In this document: positions 6,486-63,166 of the stretch, piece after piece
Position numbering within the stretch: the first letter of the stretch is position 1
How the letters are laid out: every line of letters begins with the position of its first letter
Source of the DNA: Nocardiopsis sp. CC223A
Lineage (GTDB): Bacteria; Actinomycetota; Actinomycetes; Streptosporangiales; Streptosporangiaceae
DNA length: 64,000 bases
Direction of reading: 5' to 3'
Assembly: GCF_030766825.1 (NCBI RefSeq)
Contig: NZ_JASFDV010000028.1
Span: 1-64,000 of the forward strand
Made by a program: the position numbers and the translations under genes
The notes under the pieces: generated by a model
Database searches by the model: none
Told to the model about the DNA's origin: nothing
Seen by the model: the letters and a program-made list of their open reading frames with translations, nothing else

Positions 6486-7585
6486 GGACCGCGCGCAGGC
6501 CCGGGGCCCGCCTCACCGGCGTCCTCGGCATCCGCTATCCCGTCGTCCAGGGCCCCTTCGGCGGCGGTCTGTCCTCGGTCGGGCTGACCGCCGCGGTCTC
6601 CGGGGCCGGCGGCCTGGGATCCTACGGTGTCCACGCCATGGCGCCCGAGGACATCGGCCCCCTGGTGGGGCGGATCAGGGCCGCCACGTCGGAGCCCTTC
6701 GCCGTCAACCTGTGGGTGCCGCGGGCCGAGGAGGAGCGCCCCGTCCCCGACGCCGCGGTCCTGGCCGTCCACACCGACCGCCTGGCCGCCCACTACGCCG
6801 AGTTCGGCCTCACCCCGCCGGATCTCGAAGCGGCCAACGCGCACCCGGACTTCGACGCCCAGCTCGACGCCGTTCTCGCGGCCCGGCCACCGGTGATCAG
6901 TGTCGTCATGGGGCCGCCGCCCCGACGACTGGTCGAGGCCGCCCGGAGCGCCGGGGCGGTCGTCGTCGGCACCGCCACGACGGTGGCCGAGGCGGTGGTG
7001 CTGGAGGAGGCCGGATGCGACGTCGTCGTGGCGTCGGGCAGTGACGCGGGAGGACACCGCGGTTCCTTCCTGGCACCCGTGCGCGAGTCGCTGGTCGGCA
7101 CGTTCTCGCTGGTCCCCCAGGTGCGCGATGCCGTGTCCGCGTCCGTCCCCGTGGTCGCCGCGGGCGGGATCGCCGACGGGCGCGGAGTCGCCGCGGCCCT
7201 GACCCTGGGCGCCGACGGCGTCCAGGTGGGGACCGGCTTCCTCCGGACCCCGGAGTCCGGCGCGAGTCCGGTGCACCGGGAGGCGCTCGCCTCGGAGCAG
7301 GCGCGGACCACCGTGCTGACCCGGCTCTTCTCCGGACGCCCGGCCCGGGGGATCGCCAACGCGCTGGTGCGTGGACTGGCCGACGCGGAGGACCGGGTCC
7401 CGCCCTATCCCGGGCAGAACAACCTGATGCTGCCGATCCGGGCGCGGGCCGCGGACTCGGGGCGGGCGGACCGGCTCAACCTGTGGTCGGGCCAGTCGGC
7501 CCTGCTCGCCTCCGGTGAGGGCGCCGGAGAGTACCTGTCCGCGCTGGTCGCCGGAGCCGGAGAGGTGCTCGGAACCCAGTTGTGA
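6482..7585 (+). CDS. Nitronate monooxygenase (2-nitropropane dioxygenase family)
   Basis: 367 residues, FMN-dependent TIM barrel. Family motifs in order are YPVVQGPFGGG near the start, VVVASGSDAGGHRG with the likely catalytic His near residue 190, and AAGGIADGRGVAAAL followed by GADGVQVGTGF, the FMN phosphate site. The family oxidises alkyl nitronates such as propionate-3-nitronate; FabK-type enoyl reductases are related, but the AGGH motif favours the monooxygenase. GTG 6482 overlaps the WrbA-like stop, so the TetR, WrbA and NMO genes form one detoxification module (inference). Confidence 0.85.
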   Translation: MRTARRPGARLTGVLGIRYPVVQGPFGGGLSSVGLTAAVSGAGGLGSYGVHAMAPEDIGPLVGRIRAATSEPFAVNLWVPRAEEERPVPDAAVLAVHTDRLAAHYAEFGLTPPDLEAANAHPDFDAQLDAVLAARPPVISVVMGPPPRRLVEAARSAGAVVVGTATTVAEAVVLEEAGCDVVVASGSDAGGHRGSFLAPVRESLVGTFSLVPQVRDAVSASVPVVAAGGIADGRGVAAALTLGADGVQVGTGFLRTPESGASPVHREALASEQARTTVLTRLFSGRPARGIANALVRGLADAEDRVPPYPGQNNLMLPIRARAADSGRADRLNLWSGQSALLASGEGAGEYLSALVAGAGEVLGTQL

Positions 7586-7590
7586 GGTCA

Positions 7591-7619
7591 CCGGGCCCGC
7601 CGCTGGGCGGCGGGCCCGG
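7591..7619. terminator. 13 bp perfect hairpin between convergent genes
   Basis: CCGGGCCCGCCGC (7591-7603) pairs perfectly with GCGGCGGGCCCGG (7607-7619) across a three-base loop, six bases after the nitronate monooxygenase stop. It can act for both that gene and the convergent uppP. Confidence 0.7.
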
Positions 7620-7645
7620 GGGCTGCGCACCGGACCGGACCCGGT

Positions 7646-8788
7646 TCAGGGGGTGGGGTCGTACTGCTCGCCGGTCATCGGGTTGGTGGCCAGCCCGGTG
7701 GCGGGGTCGTAGTCGACGTCCATGCCCAGGTCCGGGTCGTGCAGCAGCCCCGTCTCGGGGTTGCGCGGCAGCCCGGAGGCGGCGTCGATCTCCCAGCCGG
7801 TCACCGGGTCGGTCCGCGGGGCCTGCTCCTGCTCCCCGGCCTCCTCGGAAGGAGCGGCCGAGGGGTCCGCGGAGGGCGCGTCCGACGGCGCGGCCTCGGT
7901 CTCCTCCTGCTCCGGCGCCTGCTCCTCGGCGATGACCTCGCCGCGTCCCGCCTGCGACTCCGCGCCGCCCTGCGGGTCGAGCACGCCCCAGCTCACCAGG
8001 GCCAGGATGACGATGCCCAGGCCCACCCGGTAGTAGACGAACGGCATGAAGCTGTGCGTGGAGATGAACTTCATCAGCCAGGCGATCACCGCGAACCCGA
8101 TCACGCCCGCGATGACCGTGCCCACGATGGTGGCACCCCATCCGGCGTACTCGTTGTCGCCGATGTCGGTCAGCTTGTACAGGCCCGCGCCGAACACGGC
8201 GGGCAGGGCCAGCAGGAAGGCGTACTCGGCCGCGTCCTTGCGGTTGAAGCCCATCAGCATCCCGCCGGTGATGGTGCCGCCGGAGCGGGAGACCCCGGGG
8301 ATCAGGGCCAGGGCCTGGAAGAGGCCGAAGCCCAGGCCGCGCGGGATGTTGAGGTCATCCAGCGTGCGGTGCCTACGGGAGTAGCGGTCCGCCACACCCA
8401 GGAAGACGCCGAAGATGATGAGGTTGAGCGCGACCAGGCGCAGGTCCCGGAAGACGCCGTCGATCTGGTCCTCCAGCAGCAGCCCCAGCACCACGATCGG
8501 GATCGAGCCGAGGATGACGTACCAGCCCATGCGGGCGTTGACGTCGCCGCGCAGGCCGCGGTCGAACAGCGACCTGGTCCAGGTGGAAAGGATCGCCCAG
8601 ATCCGTTGGCGGAAGTAGATGACGACGGCCAGTTCGGTCCCGATCTGGCTGACGGCGGTGAAGGCGGCTCCGGGATCGGGCCAGCCGAAGAACGCGGACA
8701 CCACGCGCAGGTGCCCGCTGGAGGAGATCGGGAGGAATTCGGTCAGGCCTTGGACCAGGCCGAGAACGATGGCTTCGAGAATGGACAC
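7646..8788 (-). CDS. uppP: Undecaprenyl-diphosphatase with repeat-bearing C-terminal tail
   Basis: 380 residues. The first about 267 are a complete UppP/BacA membrane enzyme, which dephosphorylates undecaprenyl diphosphate for the cell-wall lipid cycle. The active-site motifs are TEFLPISSSGH (residues 16-26) and GVSRSGG (near 165). The remaining about 113 residues are extra: first an acidic Glu/Ala/Ser/Pro stretch, then a series of about eight-residue units of pattern (D/N)P-x-x-G-x-x-x (DPVTG, DAASG, NPETG, DPDLG, DPATG, NPMTG). Ordinary UppP proteins end near residue 270-290. The gene appears monocistronic. Confidence 0.9.
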   Translation of the reverse strand: MSILEAIVLGLVQGLTEFLPISSSGHLRVVSAFFGWPDPGAAFTAVSQIGTELAVVIYFRQRIWAILSTWTRSLFDRGLRGDVNARMGWYVILGSIPIVVLGLLLEDQIDGVFRDLRLVALNLIIFGVFLGVADRYSRRHRTLDDLNIPRGLGFGLFQALALIPGVSRSGGTITGGMLMGFNRKDAAEYAFLLALPAVFGAGLYKLTDIGDNEYAGWGATIVGTVIAGVIGFAVIAWLMKFISTHSFMPFVYYRVGLGIVILALVSWGVLDPQGGAESQAGRGEVIAEEQAPEQEETEAAPSDAPSADPSAAPSEEAGEQEQAPRTDPVTGWEIDAASGLPRNPETGLLHDPDLGMDVDYDPATGLATNPMTGEQYDPTP

Positions 8789-9206
8789 GGCAGGGTCTGC
8801 TCCGGGTTGTCACGGTGGCGTCGCCGGGTGGGAAACCAGGGGGTGACCGGGGTACACCGGGACGTGTCCCCGGGGGGAACGGGACCGGGAACGGCTCCGG
8901 GGGGTGCGGCGCCGTTCGCGTCCGTGGTGGACCGGGGGCGGCGGGCGAGGACCCGGAGCCCTGGTCAGAGGCAAGAATAGTGTGCCCCGGGAGGGACGGC
9001 GGACACGGGGCGCGGGGAGCCGGGGTGCCGCCCGCCCCGCGGTTCCCGGACCGGGCGGGGGCTCTGCCGTCCGCCCCGGCCGGCACCGTGCTCACCGGGG
9101 CCCGGGCGCGCTCGTTCTGCCGGGGTGGATCGTGCCGGTGGGCTGTGCCGTTGCGGTCCGGTTCGCGCGCGCCGATCCCTGACCGCGGCCCGTCGCCCCC
9201 GCCCCG
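8789..9206. other. 418 bp intergenic region, no gene seen
   Basis: Between two minus-strand genes. Frames here lack starts with ribosome binding sites and consistent codon bias. A single AT-rich spot, AGAATA at 8974-8979 (TATTCT on the minus strand), could be a -10 element for uppP, but no -35 is obvious. Confidence 0.4.
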
Positions 9207-9959
9207 CTACGCGGGGTCCCGGCCGTCCGACCCGGCGGCGGACCCGGCCTCCGGGATGGGGTGTCGGCCGACGAGCCCTTCGCGGGCGTCCTCCGTCACG
9301 ATCCGCTCCGCCGCCTCCGCGTCCCGGTCCCGCAGGGCGCGGACCAGGGCGCGGTGGTAGGTGTAGCGGTCCAGGGCGGACAGGTCCCCGGCGGAGACGT
9401 GCTCCAGCAGGCGGGTGCGGTGCTCGGCCCTGGAGAAGACGCGCGTCTGTTCCACGAGCCCCACCAGGACGGGGTTGTTCGCGCAGGTGTCCACCGTGTC
9501 GTTGAACTGCTGCACGGTGTCGAGCAGGGCGCCGATGTAGTCGTCGACGGAGCGCCCCTGGGAGCTGCGCCGCTGGATGAGGATCAGCAGGTCGTCGGCC
9601 TCGTCGAGGATGCCGTCGAGCCGGTCCAGCTGGGCGTCGGAGGCGTGGCGCGCGGCGAAGCGGGCGACCAGGCCGCGCAGTGCGCCCTCGACTTCGGCCA
9701 GGTCCTGGACCGCGGTGTCCTCCAGGGCCGAGACGATGGTGGTGCGGGGTCCGACGCGGTCGAGCAGACCTTCCCGCTCCAGCCGCCGGATGGCGTCGCG
9801 CACCGGGGTCGGGCTCACGGACAGGCGTTCGGCGAGCCCGCGTTCGGTGATCTTCTCCCCGGGGCCGAGCTCCCCCGACCTGATGGCGTCGCGCACCGCC
9901 CTGTAGGTGCGATCGGCCAGCGTCTCGGTGGTCAAGGTGCGCAACTGCCTGCCGGTCAT
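9207..9959 (-). CDS. GntR family regulator, FadR/FCD subfamily
   Basis: 250 residues from ATG 9959. An N-terminal winged helix (YRAVRDAIRSGELGPGEKITERGLAERLSVSPTPVRDAIRRLEREGLL) precedes an all-helical FCD ligand domain ending near RALVRALRDRDAEAAERIV. FCD regulators usually sense carboxylic acids. A longer frame reaches an ATG-type start at 9992, but that start abuts a palindrome at 9998-10015, so the shorter form is preferred. There is no divergent partner, so targets are unknown; the palindrome suggests autoregulation. Confidence 0.85.
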   Translation of the reverse strand: MTGRQLRTLTTETLADRTYRAVRDAIRSGELGPGEKITERGLAERLSVSPTPVRDAIRRLEREGLLDRVGPRTTIVSALEDTAVQDLAEVEGALRGLVARFAARHASDAQLDRLDGILDEADDLLILIQRRSSQGRSVDDYIGALLDTVQQFNDTVDTCANNPVLVGLVEQTRVFSRAEHRTRLLEHVSAGDLSALDRYTYHRALVRALRDRDAEAAERIVTEDAREGLVGRHPIPEAGSAAGSDGRDPA

Positions 9960-9997
9960 GCCCCGACGATAGCGGACTCCGAATCTCCGCACGCCGT

Positions 9998-10015
9998 TTT
10001 GTCATTTTTGACAAA
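9998..10015. promoter_or_regulatory. Palindromic operator TTTGTCA-N4-TGACAAA
   Basis: TTTGTCA (9998-10004) and TGACAAA (10009-10015) form an exact inverted repeat in an AT-rich island about 40 bp upstream of the GntR gene. TTGTCA on the minus strand could double as a -35 box. It is the likely autoregulatory site. Confidence 0.55.
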
Positions 10016-10219
10016 CTTGAAATATCAAAACTGGAATCGGCGTGGCCGGGCCCCGCCGTCCCGCCGAGCGGATGGGGCGGCGCCGGGCCTGTCGCGCACC
10101 GCCGTGCAGGTCGGCGCGATCGCCGCCGCGGGTGTCATCGGCCCGGTCCTCGGGGGGTGCCCGCCGGTGCCGGGTTCCCCATCCTCGACCGGATCATCGC
10201 GGGACCGGCCGCGGCGGCG

Positions 10220-10918
10220 CTACCGCCGACCGCCCCCGCCCCCGCGCTCGGCCGCCGCCGACCCCCCGTCGGGGTGGAGGGCGCCGAGGATGAGCGAGAG
10301 TCCGAAGGCGAAGTCCTCGTCGGGGTCGTAGTCCCCGGCCCCGGCCTGGGCGGCGATGACCTCGGCCAGGTGGGGGTGGGCCCGGCCCAGGGGGCCGTCC
10401 AGGATGCCACCCGCGACCTCGGCCAGGCCCTCGCGATCGGTGAAGGGCAGGCTCAGCTCCTGCATGACGAACCCGTACACGTAGCTGTCGATCACGGACA
10501 CCGCGCGCATGGCCAGGGTCACGGAGAAGCCCTGGGACCGCAGGATGCCCAGGACGGTGTCGTGGTGGCGCAGCGTCGCCGGGCCGGGGTCGGTACGGGA
10601 GTCCAGCAGGCCGACCGCCCAGGGGTGGCGGCGCAGCGCGGCGCGGGCGGAGGCGGCCCGGTCGCGCACGGCGGACCGCCAGTCCGCGGCGGGGTCGGGG
10701 AGGTCGATCTCGGCGAACACCGCGTCGACCATCCCGTCGAGGAGGGCCTCCCGGTTGGCCACGTGGTTGTAGAGCGACATCGCCTCGACGCCCAGTCGAC
10801 CCGCGACGGCCCGCATGGTGACCCCGGCCTCGCCCTTGTCGTCGGCCAGGGCGATCGCGGCGGTGACCACCCGCTCCCGGCTCAGTTGGGGGCGCTTGGG
10901 GCGTCCGCGTCCGGCCAT
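10220..10918 (-). CDS. TetR family regulator (TetR_C-type ligand domain)
   Basis: 232 residues. The helix-turn-helix is VTMRAVAGRLGVEAMSLYNHVANREALLDGM, typical of the TetR subfamily whose C-terminal domain follows with AVSVIDSYVYGFVMQEL and an acidic DYDPDEDFAFGLSLIL. The last residues are Gly/Arg-rich. It is divergent from the NAD(P)-binding gene at 11010, and two palindromic sites lie between, so it most likely represses both itself and that operon. Confidence 0.87.
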   Translation of the reverse strand: MAGRGRPKRPQLSRERVVTAAIALADDKGEAGVTMRAVAGRLGVEAMSLYNHVANREALLDGMVDAVFAEIDLPDPAADWRSAVRDRAASARAALRRHPWAVGLLDSRTDPGPATLRHHDTVLGILRSQGFSVTLAMRAVSVIDSYVYGFVMQELSLPFTDREGLAEVAGGILDGPLGRAHPHLAEVIAAQAGAGDYDPDEDFAFGLSLILGALHPDGGSAAAERGGGGGRR

Positions 10919-57619: not shown

Positions 57620-57663
57620 AGTCGGTCGTGTTGGGACAGTCACACGTCACTACAGGAGGCGAA

Positions 57664-57879
57664 ATGGCCACCACGACCACCGCTGTTTACACCGTTGACG
57701 GTATGAGCTGCGGTCACTGCGTCAACTCCGTCACCCAGGAGGTCGGCGCGGTCGCCGGCGTCACCGACGTCCAGGTGGACCTGGGCGCCAAGAAGGTGAC
57801 CGTGACCGGTGAGGGCACCGTGGACGACGCCGCGGTGCGCGCCGCCATCGACGAGGCCGGCTACGAGGTCCGCGGCTGA
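57664..57879 (+). CDS. copZ: CopZ-like copper chaperone (HMA domain)
   Basis: 71 residues, one heavy-metal-associated domain with the Cu(I) site GMSCGHC near residue 17. The remainder (VNSVTQEVGAVAGVTDVQVD, then VRAAIDEAGYEVRG) fits the ferredoxin-like fold. It carries Cu(I) to a copper ATPase. ATG 57664 follows AGGAGG. It is preceded by two CsoR-type boxes and followed 75 bp later by a collapsed copper ATPase gene. Confidence 0.92.
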   Translation: MATTTTAVYTVDGMSCGHCVNSVTQEVGAVAGVTDVQVDLGAKKVTVTGEGTVDDAAVRAAIDEAGYEVRG

Positions 57880-57954
57880 AAGACCGGCGGCGGCCGGGGC
57901 CGGCCCCCGGGTCGGCCCCGAGCTGTTCCGGTGGCGGCGGGAGCGGCACCGAGG

Positions 57955-58548
57955 ATGAGCGCACCCGTTGAGCCGGCGATCGGTGGTATGACCTGCGCCG
58001 CCTGTGCCGACCGCGTCGAGAAGCGCCCCGACGAAAGGGACGGCGTCACCGTCACCGTCGACCACGCCACCGAGAAGGCCGGAGTCTCCTTCTGCGCGCT
58101 GTTCCCGGGCACCGCGGGCGATCCGGGCATGACGCACCCCTTCGAGCTCACCATCGCCCGCACCGACGGCTCCGCCGGCATCTACCTGGAGGTCGCCGCC
58201 GGGGTCACCGCCTTCATCCTGGCCGGACGCTACTTCGAGGCCCGCTCCGAACGGCGGGCGGGCGCCGCCCTGCGCGCGCTCATGGAGTCGGGCGCCAAGG
58301 ACGCCACCGTGCTGCGCGGCGGTGCCGAGCAGCCGACCCCCATCGCCGACCTGGCCGTGTCCGGCGTGTTCGTGGTCACCGACAGCCTACGACTGCGCCG
58401 CTTCGGCCGTTGGACCGCGGCGCCCGCCGTCCGAACCGGCGGCACCGCCGTGGCCGGGACCGGTCACGGCCACATCACTCCAGGTCACCGGGGGAGCAGA
58501 GGGCACAGCAGGGATCAGGTCTCGCACCGGCGGGATCCCGGACGCTAG
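57955..58548 (+). pseudogene. copA: Collapsed copA copper P-type ATPase
   Basis: A 198-codon frame made of three CopA pieces joined in frame. First comes an N-terminal HMA domain with GGMTCAACADRVEK. Then a membrane/actuator block: ALFPGTAGDPGMTHPFELTI and ILAGRYFEARSERRAGAALR. Last come the final residues of a CopA protein, VFVVTDSLRLRRF, near 58367-58405. The phosphorylation (DKTGT) and nucleotide domains and most helices are missing, about 550 residues. The original stop is lost, so the frame runs on 47 codons of non-CopA sequence to 58548. It is non-functional as a pump. Confidence 0.8.
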
Positions 58549-58637: not shown

Positions 58638-59960
58638 GTGTCTTCAGGATGCCCCCACGCCGCGCTGTACCAGAGCGAACCGCACCCCGACCCGTACGGC
58701 GCGTACGCGAAGATGCGCGCGGACCACGGGCCGGTGATCCCCGCCGAACTCTCGCCCGGGGTACACGGCTGGGTCGTCACCGACTACACCACCCTGATCT
58801 CCTGGTCGCGGGACACGACCACGTTCACACACGACGCCCGGCTGTGGCGGGACTTCACCGAGGGCCGGGTCGGCCCCGACAACCCGCTGCTGCCGATGAT
58901 GGCGCCCCGCGCCAACGCCCTGTTCGTGGACGGGGCTGAGCACCAGCGGTTGCGCCGGGCGATCACCGACGCCCTGGGCGCGGTCACCTCCGCGAGCCTG
59001 GCCGCCGTCACCACCCGCTACGCCGACCGGCTCATCGACGAGTTCTGCGCACGCGGCCGGGCCGACCTGCTCAACGAGTACGCGCGGATGCTGCCGCTGC
59101 TGGTCATGAACGACCTGTTCGGCATGGACGAGGGCCAGGGGCTGCGGTTCGTCGCCGCCATGCGCAACCTGTGGGCCGGGGTGGACGCCGAGCGCTCCAA
59201 CGCCGAGGCAGAGCGGGCGCTGTCGGAGGTGGTGGACGCCAAGCACCGCGAACCCGGGGACGACCTCACCAGCCGCCTGATCCGGCACCGCGCCGGGCTC
59301 TCGGACGAGGAGGTCATCATGCAGCTCCTCCTCATCATCGCGGCCGCCAACGAGCCCACCGCCGCGCTCATCGACTCCGCCCTGCGGGCCGTCCTGACCG
59401 ACCCGGCCCTGCGCGTCCCCGGCGGTCCCTCCCCGGCGGCGCTGAACGACCTGGTGGAGCGGGTGCTGTGGCGCGATCCGCCGATCACCAACTACCCGGT
59501 GATCTACCCGCGCGTCGACGTCCCGCTGGACGGCGGCCGTGTCATCGAGGCCGGGTCGCCCATCCTGCTCGCCTTCGCCGCCGCCAACCACTTCTTCCAG
59601 AAGGACAACGCGGAGCAGGTGTCCGACGGTGCCAACCGCGCCCACGTGGCGTGGGGCGCGGGCCCCCACCGCTGCCCGGCCCGGGACGAGGCGACCACGA
59701 TCGCCACCATCGCCACCCGCCGGATCCTGGAGCGGCTGTCCGACCCGGCACTGGCCGTCCCCCCGGAACAGCTGCGCTGGAGGCTGGCCACCCTGTCCTG
59801 GGCCCCGGTGTCCCTCCCGGTCCGCTTCACCCCGCAGACACCCGCCGCCCCCGAATCCGAACCCGGACCGGGGCCCGACCCCGCCGCCCCCGAACCCGCC
59901 CGGGGCGGTGCCGTGTCGTCCCTGTCGAACCTCCTGAAGAGGCTGCTGCGCCGGTCATGA
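58638..59960 (+). CDS. Cytochrome P450 lacking ExxR (CYP157-like)
   Basis: 440 residues. The haem-ligand loop is AWGAGPHRCPARDE with Cys346; the usual Phe is Trp and the Gly after Cys is Ala/Pro-like. The K-helix position reads E274-R-V-L-W278, so the ExxR pair normally essential in P450s is replaced by an E-x-x-L-W pattern, as reported for Streptomyces CYP157 enzymes. The I-helix has AAANEPTAAL without the normal AGxxT. The C-terminus has a Pro-rich and basic extension. GTG 58638. It is followed 54 bp later by a CYP154-like gene, the classic partner. Confidence 0.82.
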   Translation: MSSGCPHAALYQSEPHPDPYGAYAKMRADHGPVIPAELSPGVHGWVVTDYTTLISWSRDTTTFTHDARLWRDFTEGRVGPDNPLLPMMAPRANALFVDGAEHQRLRRAITDALGAVTSASLAAVTTRYADRLIDEFCARGRADLLNEYARMLPLLVMNDLFGMDEGQGLRFVAAMRNLWAGVDAERSNAEAERALSEVVDAKHREPGDDLTSRLIRHRAGLSDEEVIMQLLLIIAAANEPTAALIDSALRAVLTDPALRVPGGPSPAALNDLVERVLWRDPPITNYPVIYPRVDVPLDGGRVIEAGSPILLAFAAANHFFQKDNAEQVSDGANRAHVAWGAGPHRCPARDEATTIATIATRRILERLSDPALAVPPEQLRWRLATLSWAPVSLPVRFTPQTPAAPESEPGPGPDPAAPEPARGGAVSSLSNLLKRLLRRS

Positions 59961-60014
59961 CCGGACCCCCGCACCCCGTCCTCCCCCGCCCCGACCCCCG
60001 TGGAAGGATCCGCG

Positions 60015-61220
60015 TTGGAACCCGTCCGTCTCGCGCCCGGAAACCTCAGAGCCCAGACCGCCCACCTGCGTGAACTCGGCCCCGTCGTGCCCGTCGTGCT
60101 GCCCGGCGACGTCACCGCCTGGGCGGCCACCACCCACGCCGCCGTCACCGAGGCCCTGGCCCATCCCGGGGTCCAGAAGGACAAACGGCACTGGCGGGCG
60201 TTCAACGCCGGGGAGATCCCGCCGGACTGGCCGCTGATCTCCTGGATCATCGCCGAGAACATGCTGACCAGCGACGGTGAGCAGCACACCCGGCTGCGCA
60301 AACTGGTCTCCCAGGCCTTCACCCCGCGCCGCGTCGAGCACCTGCGGTCGGGTGTCGTCGGCATCGTCGAGGGCCTGCTGGACGGGATGGCCGCCGAAGC
60401 GGAGCGCACCGGCGGGGTGGTGGACCTCAAACCGCACTTCGCCCAGCCGCTGCCGACGACGGTCATCAGCGACCTGTTCGGGGTGTCCCGGCAGGACCGG
60501 GGCGAGCTGCACCGGCTGGTCGGGGTGTTCTTCGACCAGAGCATCACCCCCGAGGCCGCCATGGCCACGTTCTTCGAGCTGTGGACGCTGTTGACCGCCC
60601 TGGTCGCCGCCAAGCGCGCCGCACCCGGCGACGACCTCACCTCCGCGCTCATCGCCGCCCGCGACGAGCAGGACCGGCTCAGCGAGGACGAGCTGATCTG
60701 GAGCCTGGTGCTCATCATCAGCGCGGGCTACGAGACCACGGTGAACCTCATCACCAACGCCGTCCGCGCCCTGCTCACCCACCGGGACCAGCTCAAGCTG
60801 CTGGACTCGGGCGAGGTCGAGTGGTCCACCGCGGTCGAGGAGGTGATGCGCTGGGACGGGCCGGGCGGGTTCGTGCCGATGCGTTACACCACCGGGGAGG
60901 TCGAACTGGCCGGGGTGCGGATCCCGGCGGGCGAGCCCCTGTTGCTGGGCTACGGGTCCGCGGGCCGCGACCCCGAGCGCCACGGCGACACCGCGCACCT
61001 GTTCGACATCACCCGGGAGGACACCTCCCACCTGGGCTTCTCCCGCGGTAGGCACTACTGCCTGGGGGCGAACCTGGCCCGGATGGAGGTGAACGAGGCG
61101 CTGCCGCGCCTGTTCGAGCGCTTCCCCGGCCTGGAACTCGCGGTCCCGGTGGAGGACCTGCCGCCGCTGCCGTCCATCATCGTCTCGGGGGTGGAGAGCC
61201 TGCCGGTGCGCCTGGGCTGA
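60015..61220 (+). CDS. Cytochrome P450 (CYP154-like)
   Basis: 401 residues. It has all the usual motifs: I-helix LIISAGYETTVNLI, ExxR in VEEVMRWDGPGG, and haem loop LGFSRGRHYCLGANLAR with Cys349. The pairing with an ExxR-less P450 just upstream mirrors the CYP157-CYP154 couple of Streptomyces conservons. The start is TTG 60015, with GGAAGG six bases upstream; GTG 60000 is an alternative. The other conservon genes (cvnA to cvnD) were not found on either side. Confidence 0.88.
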   Translation: MEPVRLAPGNLRAQTAHLRELGPVVPVVLPGDVTAWAATTHAAVTEALAHPGVQKDKRHWRAFNAGEIPPDWPLISWIIAENMLTSDGEQHTRLRKLVSQAFTPRRVEHLRSGVVGIVEGLLDGMAAEAERTGGVVDLKPHFAQPLPTTVISDLFGVSRQDRGELHRLVGVFFDQSITPEAAMATFFELWTLLTALVAAKRAAPGDDLTSALIAARDEQDRLSEDELIWSLVLIISAGYETTVNLITNAVRALLTHRDQLKLLDSGEVEWSTAVEEVMRWDGPGGFVPMRYTTGEVELAGVRIPAGEPLLLGYGSAGRDPERHGDTAHLFDITREDTSHLGFSRGRHYCLGANLARMEVNEALPRLFERFPGLELAVPVEDLPPLPSIIVSGVESLPVRLG

Positions 61221-61465: not shown

Positions 61466-63166
61466 ATGAACAGTTCGGATGCCGACTCCGGTCGACTCCT
61501 GGCCAACCGGTACCGCCTGGACGAGGTCATCGGCGCAGGCGGCATGGGCCGGGTCTGGAAGGGCAGTGACACCCTCCTGGACCGGCCGGTCGCGGTCAAG
61601 GAGCTGACGACCCCGCCGAACCTGCCCGCGCACGAGGTGGAGGTCCTGCGCACCCGCATGCTCCGCGAGGCGCGCAGCGCCGCCCAGCTCAGCCACCCGT
61701 CGATCATCACCGTGTTCGACGTGGCCGAGGAGGACGGCCGTCCCTGGATCGTCATGCAGCTGGTCAGCGGGTCCTCCCTGGGCGACGTCATCCGCGAGGG
61801 CGGGGTGCTGCCGGTGGCGCGGGTCGCCGACATCGGCGAGCAGATGGCGGCCGGCCTGTCGGAGGCGCACGCGAGCGGCATCGTCCACCGCGACGTCAAA
61901 CCCGGCAACGTGCTCATCGACGACAAGGGCCGGGCGGTGCTCACCGACTTCGGCATCGCCCACCTGGACGGCTCCACCCACCTGACCAGCACCGGGCTGC
62001 TCATCGGCTCGCCCAGCTACCTGGCTCCGGAGATCGCCCACGGGCACTCCGCGACCCCCGCCTCGGACGTGTGGTCCCTGGGCATCACCCTGTTCCAGGC
62101 ATTGGAGGGCACCCTGCCCTTCGACCGGCCCACTCCGGTGGCGACGCTGACCGCGATCGTCACCCAGGAGCTGCCGGCCCCCGTCAACGCCGGACCGCTG
62201 GCCCCGCTGCTGCGGGAGCTGTGCGCCAAGAAGCCGGAGGAGCGGCCCGACATCGACACGGTCCGGGCCCGGCTGCGGGAGGTCCGGGACCGCGCCGGGG
62301 CGGCCGCGGGGGCCGCCCCGGTGGCGCCGACCCTCACCGCCACGGTGCCGACCGAGGAGCCGGAGGCCGAGCAGGCGGTCATGGCGGCCGCACCGGCGCC
62401 CGCCCCGGAACCGGACACCCCGCCTCCCGCGGCCGTCGCGCCCCGCACCGCCGAACGGGACCGGTCCCGGCGGCGCAACCTGCTGGTGGTCGCCGCCGCC
62501 CTGGTCGTCCTGGTGGTCGCCGCCGGGGCGACGCTCTACATCAGCATGAACCGGAACGGCGAACCCGACGCCGGTCTGGTCTCCCAGAACCAGGCCGGGG
62601 CCGCTCCGCCGGAGGAGGAGTCGGAGGCGCCCGCCGACGAGGGCGGCGAGGACGGCGAGGACGGCGGCGGCGCCCCCGAGGAGGAGGCCCCGGAGGAGCC
62701 CGCGGAGCAGGACGAGGACCCCTGGGCGGACGGGCTGGCGGTCCACGAGGACTCCAGCGGCTTCACCGTGGAGTACCCGGACGGCTGGACCCTGCGCAGG
62801 GAGGGGAACATGGTCTACTTCGACAATCCCGACGGCGGCTACCTGCTCGTCGACCAGACCGACGACCCCGGTCCGGACGCCGCACAGGACTGGCGCGACT
62901 TCGCGCCGGTCGGCAGCGGCAACTTCCCCGGCTACGAGCTGATCGGCATCGAGGAGGTCGAGGACGACTGGACCGACGCCTACATCACCGCCGCCGACTG
63001 GGAGTTCACCTACGACGGCCGGGGCGGGCGCATGCACGCCGTCAACCGCGGCTTCCACACCGAGGAGAAGGGCTACGCGCTCTTCCTGGTGGCCGACAAC
63101 GAGCATGCCGACATGAACCGGGAGCTGCTGGACCGGCTCTCGGAGACCTTCGTCCCCGCGGCCTGA
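61466..63166 (+). CDS. PASTA-less membrane Ser/Thr protein kinase
   Basis: 566 residues. The kinase domain (residues 16-275) is complete: GAGGMGRV, the catalytic Lys45 in VAVKEL, HRDVKPGNVLI, DFGIAH and SPSYLAPEIAHG. A Pro/Ala/Glu linker and one membrane helix (LLVVAAALVVLVVAAGATLY) near 335-360 follow. The external part has an acidic, low-complexity stretch, then a folded domain (FTVEYPDGWTLRREG ... WEFTYDGRGGRMHAV) of about 120 residues. There are no PASTA repeats. ATG 61466 has no ribosome binding site. TAGAAT at 61370-61375 may be its -10. Confidence 0.9.
   Translation: MNSSDADSGRLLANRYRLDEVIGAGGMGRVWKGSDTLLDRPVAVKELTTPPNLPAHEVEVLRTRMLREARSAAQLSHPSIITVFDVAEEDGRPWIVMQLVSGSSLGDVIREGGVLPVARVADIGEQMAAGLSEAHASGIVHRDVKPGNVLIDDKGRAVLTDFGIAHLDGSTHLTSTGLLIGSPSYLAPEIAHGHSATPASDVWSLGITLFQALEGTLPFDRPTPVATLTAIVTQELPAPVNAGPLAPLLRELCAKKPEERPDIDTVRARLREVRDRAGAAAGAAPVAPTLTATVPTEEPEAEQAVMAAAPAPAPEPDTPPPAAVAPRTAERDRSRRRNLLVVAAALVVLVVAAGATLYISMNRNGEPDAGLVSQNQAGAAPPEEESEAPADEGGEDGEDGGGAPEEEAPEEPAEQDEDPWADGLAVHEDSSGFTVEYPDGWTLRREGNMVYFDNPDGGYLLVDQTDDPGPDAAQDWRDFAPVGSGNFPGYELIGIEEVEDDWTDAYITAADWEFTYDGRGGRMHAVNRGFHTEEKGYALFLVADNEHADMNRELLDRLSETFVPAA

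Follow-up and report, generated by a model that had tools for sequence, protein, structure and literature searches.

CYP157 proteins are a known exception to the ExxR rule of cytochromes P450 (P450s). The passages on them in PMC3599690 treat these ExxR-less proteins as P450s, discuss them as linked to conservons and give them no assigned function, with EQSLW and EVLW as the motifs of CYP157C1 and CYP157A. In the conservon (cvn) operons of actinobacterial G protein systems, a CYP157-like P450 is the accessory protein CvnE and is followed in some operons by a CYP154; the pertinent part of PMC13343842 has P450-type CvnE proteins accompanying CvnA kinases without a sensory domain and predicts a contact of CvnE11 with the HATPase domains of CvnA11. 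Two adjacent P450 genes of the soil bacterium Nocardiopsis sp. CC223A, in a 64,000-nucleotide (nt) stretch (positions 1 to 64,000 of contig NZ_JASFDV010000028.1, hereafter the window), both resemble and depart from these systems. The first gene, CYPA, shares with the Streptomyces CYP157A and CYP157C proteins a Trp in place of the ExxR Arg and a retained Cys, and the second, CYPB, has its closest described counterpart in CYP154C1 (1gwi), with which it shares a clade, 46% identity over 393 columns and the canonical ExxR and AGxETT motifs. Unlike them, the window pair has no cvn genes, its neighbours are copZ-copA and a Ser/Thr protein kinase (STPK) gene, and in most relatives the C-terminal tail of the CYP157-like protein is written over the partner gene, whose 5' end overlaps it by 115 nt. 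Open-licence PubMed Central papers joining CYP157, Nocardiopsis and cytochrome P450, or treating overlapping genes or overprinting in cytochromes P450, or a membrane tail of this kind, were searched for and none was found. In what follows, L-, G- and C-numbers designate fetched loci, genomes and contigs, the contig of the window pair being C28; the features are collected in the table.

An ExxR-less first P450 and a canonical second one had been proposed by the first-pass annotation, made from the letters alone, and both descriptions hold, each open reading frame (ORF) lying where it had been placed. With the register set by V-E-E-V-M-R of CYPB, the ExxR positions of CYPA are R275 and W278 (R275-V-L-W278), so that both the Glu and the Arg are replaced; the E-R-V-L-W that had been noticed is thus confirmed, but its leading E sits one residue before the ExxR Glu position. 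In the I-helix of CYPA, Pro replaces the Thr after the acid and the next Thr is retained, where CYPB and CYP154C1 read A-G-x-E-T-T, and the Arg of the F-D-x-x-R preceding the haem loop has no aligned counterpart. The Trp and the haem ligand Cys are present in 36 of 36 CYPA-locus proteins of the genus Nocardiopsis (from 35 genomes, of which one has two copies; the count omits L133 and L134, where an N gap interrupts the gene), and the motif change is therefore not due to chance. The break of L133 and L134 in the K-helix region was set aside as assembly N and not a real lesion. Across five classes of CYP157-like rows, the Cys is found in 108 of 108 (36/36, 10/10, 11/11, 28/28 and 23/23) and the Trp in 36/36, 10/10, 11/11, 26/28 and 21/23, leaving four rows with another residue. 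The Pfam model PF00067 gives no match to CYPA at 1e-3; phmmer matches it to CYP154C1 at 2.2e-36, and its best solved relatives are CYP154 enzymes both by sequence and by predicted fold (CYP154C1, template modelling score 0.67 by query length; mean predicted local distance difference test, pLDDT, 73 for the model). CYPB is likely the oxygenase of the pair, and its start is more likely the TTG at 60015, preceded by a Shine-Dalgarno-like GGAAGG at 60002-60007, than position 60000.

Features of the P450 pair and its neighbours in the window (positions are those of the window)
Feature	Position	Strand	Basis or remark
CYPA, ExxR-less CYP157-like P450, 440 residues	58638..59960	+	ORF list, phmmer, motif columns, tree, synteny
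CYPA I-helix motif A-A-N-E-P-T	59343..59360	+	motif columns
CYPA K-helix E-R-V-L-W at the E-x-x-R place, residues 274-278	59457..59471	+	motif columns
CYPA haem loop W-G-A-G-P-H-R-C-P-A, Cys346 ligand at 59673-59675	59652..59681	+	alignment
CYPA linker (P/A/E-rich) and basic tail SSLSNLLKRLLRRS; tail helix 59919-59951	59829..59957	+	overlaps CYPB start in relatives
CYPB, canonical CYP154-like P450	60000..61220	+	ORF list, Pfam, 46% to CYP154C1
CYPB 5' stretch GPVVPVVLPGDVTAWAA, one of two descendants of the ancestral overlap segment, the other being the CYPA tail	60078..60128	+	L102 comparison
copZ-like copper chaperone, intact, conserved neighbour	57628..57879	+	synteny
copA remnant, matches CopA residues 15-57 and 178-278 of 765	57931..58548	+	full gene here in most relatives
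STPK gene, conserved downstream neighbour	61466..63166	+	Pfam, synteny

By sequence, the pair is CYP157-like plus CYP154-like, short of formal family names. In a maximum-likelihood tree (quick mode) of 96 proteins chosen from the collected set, with near-copies dropped and no named CYP157 sequence included, a CYP157-like clade of 68 rows (Shimodaira-Hasegawa-like approximate likelihood ratio test, SH-aLRT, 100) contains CYPA and all 25 conservon-linked CYP157-like proteins entered, and a CYP154 clade of 22 rows (SH-aLRT 98) contains CYPB and CYP154C1, so that the tree places neither protein outside the groups first suggested for them; the branching of the CYPA and CYPB clades runs parallel. 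CYPA is 34-45% identical to 28 conservon-linked CYP157-like proteins, four of them above 40%, in a comparison set that likewise holds no named CYP157 members; the conservon-linked rows carry N-E-V-L-W, E-Q-S-L-W and similar words at the K-helix, in agreement with the motifs given for CYP157A and CYP157C1 in that part of PMC3599690. In the conservon operons L169, L172 and L176, cvnD is followed by two CYP157-CYP154 pairs in tandem; their second-in-tandem proteins bear the tree label 'other_nocvn', which makes the count of label changes too high.

The pair occupies an old, syntenic and conservon-free locus of the genus and of related genera. In 37 of 40 Nocardiopsis genomes, this place is occupied by a CYPA ortholog (at least 50% identity), the full gene order being copZ-copA-CYPA-CYPB-STPK, and in stretches of 6-17 kb GNAT and copZ matches lie upstream in 36 of the 37 loci and the STPK downstream, on the same strand, in 36. 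As to the remaining three genomes, G017 has lost both P450 genes from the locus but retains copZ-copA and a scrap of CYPB, G033 ends at a contig edge, and the GNAT match of G020 is at a contig edge. Ten further CYPA matches, at 49-54%, were fetched from four other genera of the same GTDB family; CopA lies upstream of CYPA in nine of these loci (three genera), and seven have CYPB. Queries with cvnB, cvnC and cvnD (cvnA was not a query) gave no match in the 36 other syntenic stretches, and DUF742 (cvnC), with eight matches in the window genome, has none on C28, which ends at 68264, 4.3 kb beyond the window. The absence of conservon genes around the pair, first noticed within the window, thus extends for cvnC to the whole contig, and the suggestion of a free-standing pair proves right and understated, since the locus is shared across Nocardiopsis and related genera and other cvn-less pairs exist elsewhere. 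Specifically, many Nocardiopsis genomes have a second cvn-less pair at another site (L135, L136, L157-L165), and Thermobifida fusca also has one (L056). In G017, a CYP154-like gene of the second-pair type (L197, on C74, 5762-6931) stands without a CYP157-like match in 9.7 kb of fetched sequence, the opposite of the loss usually seen.

In the window genome, C119 is the only DUF742-bearing contig that also has P450 matches, in the order cvnB-cvnC-cvnD-CYP157-CYP154. Its pair is 36% and 39% identical to the window pair, so that one genome holds both a conservon-linked and a conservon-free pair, and, in contrast to the overlapping relatives of the window pair, a tail-less CYP157 there directly abuts the CYP154 start with no long overlap. 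Three more CYP157-like matches of this genome (L032, L033, L034) have no CYPB-like gene adjoining. L032, together with L166-L168 and L174, belongs to the solo ExxR-less Nocardiopsis P450s that have no cvn match nearby and carry an acidic linker and an LLxRLLxWWRG-type tail. For Streptomyces, where the CYP157-CYP154 pair had been described as attached to cvn operons, the statement holds in part: a same-strand cvn match lies within 500 nt of 12 of 15 CYP157-like loci (E up to 1e-40), but a CYP154-like gene follows closely in only 5 of the 15; the sample consists of five genomes reached via already-matched loci, and the three loci without a near cvn match were viewed 1.5 kb to each side.

In 52 pairs (51 loci; L056 and L177 are the same), CYPB as called, with the start codon closest to the aligned position, begins before the CYPA stop and out of frame with CYPA. 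These are 24 Nocardiopsis copper loci, 7 loci of related genera, 11 second pairs and 10 others; the overlap measures 115 nt in 30 of them (23 of the 24 copper loci and all 7 of the related genera), 121 nt in 12 and 95-142 nt in the rest. The CYPA stop falls inside the CYPB codons for V-T in 39 pairs and for L-T in 12, and Shine-Dalgarno-like words precede 48 of the 52 called CYPB starts, against 19% of random 15-mers from the same loci. If CYPA is translated, so must be its tail, for no stop precedes it; the CYPB stretch, being covered by the alignment to solved CYP154, which begins at query residue 15, belongs to the fold. All proteins of the copper-locus and second-pair groups carry the tail (36/36, 10/10 and 11/11; out of frame in L125, whose split matches in several genes probably reflect poor assembly), as do 11 of 28 conservon-linked rows, with near-copies counted; conservon-linked CYP157s that have a CYP154 behind them at -4 to +77 nt lack it. 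The conservon-linked pairs L152 and L154 have both the tail and a long overlap (142 and 136 nt), and overlap and conservon are thus not exclusive. A CYPA-CYPB fusion by programmed frameshift was discarded, since 48 of the 52 overlaps have no in-frame slippery heptamer, none is common to more than two, and the window manages without the overlap.

The codons of CYPB bear a dual-coding signature. In the 37 of 52 pairs that fit the motif search, the block around L-P-G-x-V-x-A-W has a G+C fraction at third codon positions (GC3) of 0.583, compared with 0.952 in the rest of the gene, and is lower in 36 of the 37. Among the non-overlapping pairs, nine average 0.91 in this block, with 0.94 in the window and 0.82 in L100; L133 and L134, listed among 11 non-overlapping pairs, truly overlap, the N gap cutting their CYPA. 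Over the whole overlap, the GC3 deficit has P values from 4e-4 to 9e-22 in the eight genes tested from Nocardiopsis and related genera, and of 1e-6 in L150. Moreover, in seven comparisons of Nocardiopsis with related genera, four-fold third bases agree at 13/19 to 15/17 sites within the overlap and at 0.52-0.61 outside it; between L102 and the window or L100, only 10/22 and 8/22 agree. The T-ending codons in the overlap are a cost paid by CYPB.

The overlap has been undone in the lineage of the window, where the two genes stand 39 nt apart, and in L100, where they stand 61 nt apart, by called start; this separate state is derived, because the related genera have the overlap. The DNA of the window CYPA tail agrees with the L102 overlap at 42 of 51 bases, a level that 0 of 20000 random 51-mers of the window reach, and that of the CYPB 5' stretch at 33 of 51, a level reached by 2 of 20000. 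Two side-by-side descendants of one segment point to a local duplication, apparently the route by which the overlap was lost, each copy keeping one frame; the two copies are recognisable only via the ancestor-like L102. The CYPB codons that hide the CYPA stop, GTG ACC in L102, read GCC ACC in the window, and after separation the tail and the CYPB start both survive, the codon bias being largely gone. Eight tails of the non-overlapping state were set against the overlap consensus, leaving out L101, L109, L132 and the second copy of L131; in them, synonymous changes lead from TTG to CTG in seven and from CGT to CGC in eight; counted as codon events over four clades, 16 of 30 changes are synonymous (p 0.001 or 0.010, depending on the assumption).

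The tail and linker might instead be non-functional read-through, in which the stop was lost once and translation runs to a stop hidden in CYPB. Overlap by stop-codon loss has precedent, being given as a known route in a portion of PMC3887535, the frame relation of the long overlap is the same as in tail-less pairs overlapping by 1-4 nt, and the synonymous excess after separation is modest. This explanation is nonetheless judged improbable, given that the tail persists after separation in the window and in L100 and is retained in nine genomes without an intact CYPB (much altered in L101 and L132, and still with the overlap in L109), that CYPB pays with T-ending codons, and that several solo CYP157-like proteins, free of any overlap, end in W-[WLT]-R-G (W-W-R-G and similar). 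That these solo tails are fossils of a lost CYP154 was considered and is not claimed, their other-frame reading giving no CYP154 N-terminus.

CYPB is absent or broken in 9 of the 37 loci, scattered over the tree (L109 retains a scrap), and no match above 58% was found elsewhere in those nine genomes. On a tree of the neighbouring genes, at least six presence changes of CYPB are needed, for which loss is the likelier direction than gain because the related genera have CYPB. The loci were recruited through CYPA; CYPB was searched separately with agreeing results, all 28 genomes with a CYPB ortholog (at least 66%) having CYPA adjoining. The rate of CYPA relative to the STPK, response regulator, histidine kinase and GNAT proteins, in closest pairs, has a median ratio of 1.43 where both loci have CYPB (25 pairs), 2.76 where one lacks it (18 pairs) and 3.23 where both do (3 pairs), a trend and not a test, as pairs share branches. 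Relative protein distances were used because the ratio of nonsynonymous to synonymous rates (dN/dS) is hard to read at 95% GC3; by the Nei-Gojobori method, it is 0.63-0.92 among the CYPB-less L107, L121 and L126 and mostly 0.04-0.45 in the other close pairs listed. The rise after CYPB loss ties CYPA to CYPB and suggests that the two work together, with CYPA keeping some solo role. In L131 (G026, 7470-10295), CYPB is missing and two ExxR-less CYPA genes stand in tandem instead.

The reading favoured here, held tentatively and with a little less than even confidence, is that CYPA would be a haem-thiolate helper or regulatory subunit of CYPB, kept at the membrane by its tail and made together with its partner through coupling of the genes, which a duplication would have split in the window lineage. 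Having kept the haem-thiolate Cys and lost the ExxR residues and the I-helix Thr, CYPA may bind haem and assist or regulate the likely oxygenase CYPB on a presumed substrate. Its basic tail, following a variable linker, would hold the protein at the membrane, perhaps in the manner of the membrane-targeting tails of FtsA and MinD. Gene coupling would provide for joint production, in most relatives through the 115-nt (in others up to 142-nt) out-of-frame overlap with the CYPA tail written over the CYPB N-terminus; in the window lineage, a local duplication would have separated the genes with both products kept. A P450 fold serves as helper in the P450-derived glycosyltransferase activators (TIGR04515), to which CYPA has a weak match (1.8e-16, 60.5 bits); it differs from them in staying far under the cut-off of 343 bits and in keeping the Cys. 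The neighbours scanned encode GNAT, HMA, kinase and response-regulator proteins (a glycosyltransferase was not sought).

Several results weigh against this proposal. The GC3 deficit is weaker in L156 (P 0.002), L149 (0.02), L154 (0.02), L152 (0.13) and L148 (0.65), and a low value persists in the separated genes over the corresponding 36 codons (30/36 in the window, 28/36 in L100; P about 0.001), so that a 5'-end effect or a remnant may form part of the signature. For most single pairs, the excess at four-fold sites does not reach significance (p 0.03 to 0.62), the synonymous changes of the separated tails come to 16 of 37 base changes over four clades, a modest excess over the expected 26-31% (p 0.016 or 0.087, by assumption), and in the overlapping pairs constraint on CYPB alone explains tail conservation. 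Only 9 of 39 tails have a hydrophobic moment above that of shuffles at p<0.05 (the median p is 0.146, that of the window tail 0.007), and the helix predicted in the tail, at residues 428-438, has a pLDDT under 50. Direct comparison of the window CYPA end with the CYPB start gave no convincing match (best 9 bases, E 0.11), and CYPA persists without CYPB in nine genomes, which means that it may have a role of its own.

The principal alternative, considered unlikely, makes CYPA a sensor like CvnE, whose haem- or ligand-binding P450 fold would tune a kinase, rewired to the adjacent STPK or to a NarL-type two-component pair. The pairing of P450-type CvnE with sensor-less CvnA kinases in the cited part of PMC13343842 and the STPK match found downstream in the same orientation at 36 of the 37 Nocardiopsis loci are in its favour; however, the STPK is inverted in one related-genus locus (L138), and CYPA evolves faster after CYPB loss though the STPK stays, which ties CYPA to CYPB. 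It would be equally unlikely that both proteins are ordinary independent monooxygenases or oxidases that handle one substrate in two steps, the ExxR being dispensable: the Cys ligand is kept in both, and CYP157 proteins without ExxR are counted as P450s in the relevant passages of PMC3599690, but in CYPA the ExxR pair is missing, Pro takes the place of the I-helix Thr, and no Arg aligns with that of F-D-x-x-R. A role of the pair in copper homeostasis with copZ-copA, suggested by CopA matches that adjoin CYPA in 35 of the 37 loci (the window remnant uncounted) and in 9 of 10 loci of related genera, is set aside as the main reading and rated very improbable, since the window, with a copA remnant only, and L104, with no CopA match, keep both P450 genes and G017 keeps copZ-copA but lost the pair. 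The upstream copper genes of the window had been described as debris, which is true of copA but not of copZ; a full-length CopA, 78% identical, is encoded at C14:82219-84483 of the same genome.

Beyond the locus, the helper reading of CYPA could be extended to CYP157-type proteins at large, which might form a haem-thiolate helper class for CYP154, tethered to the membrane by a tail encoded over the partner N-terminus in an overlap that is old and long and kept by selection, with the conservon as one of several uses; this extension is rated as doubtful. For a family discussed as conservon-linked, the pair is found living without a conservon across a genus and its related genera, with the canonical partner missing here and there and the ExxR-less protein retained. 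Taken together, an extended out-of-frame overlap, the codon cost that it carries and the existence of a lineage in which it was undone amount to a natural experiment on dual coding.

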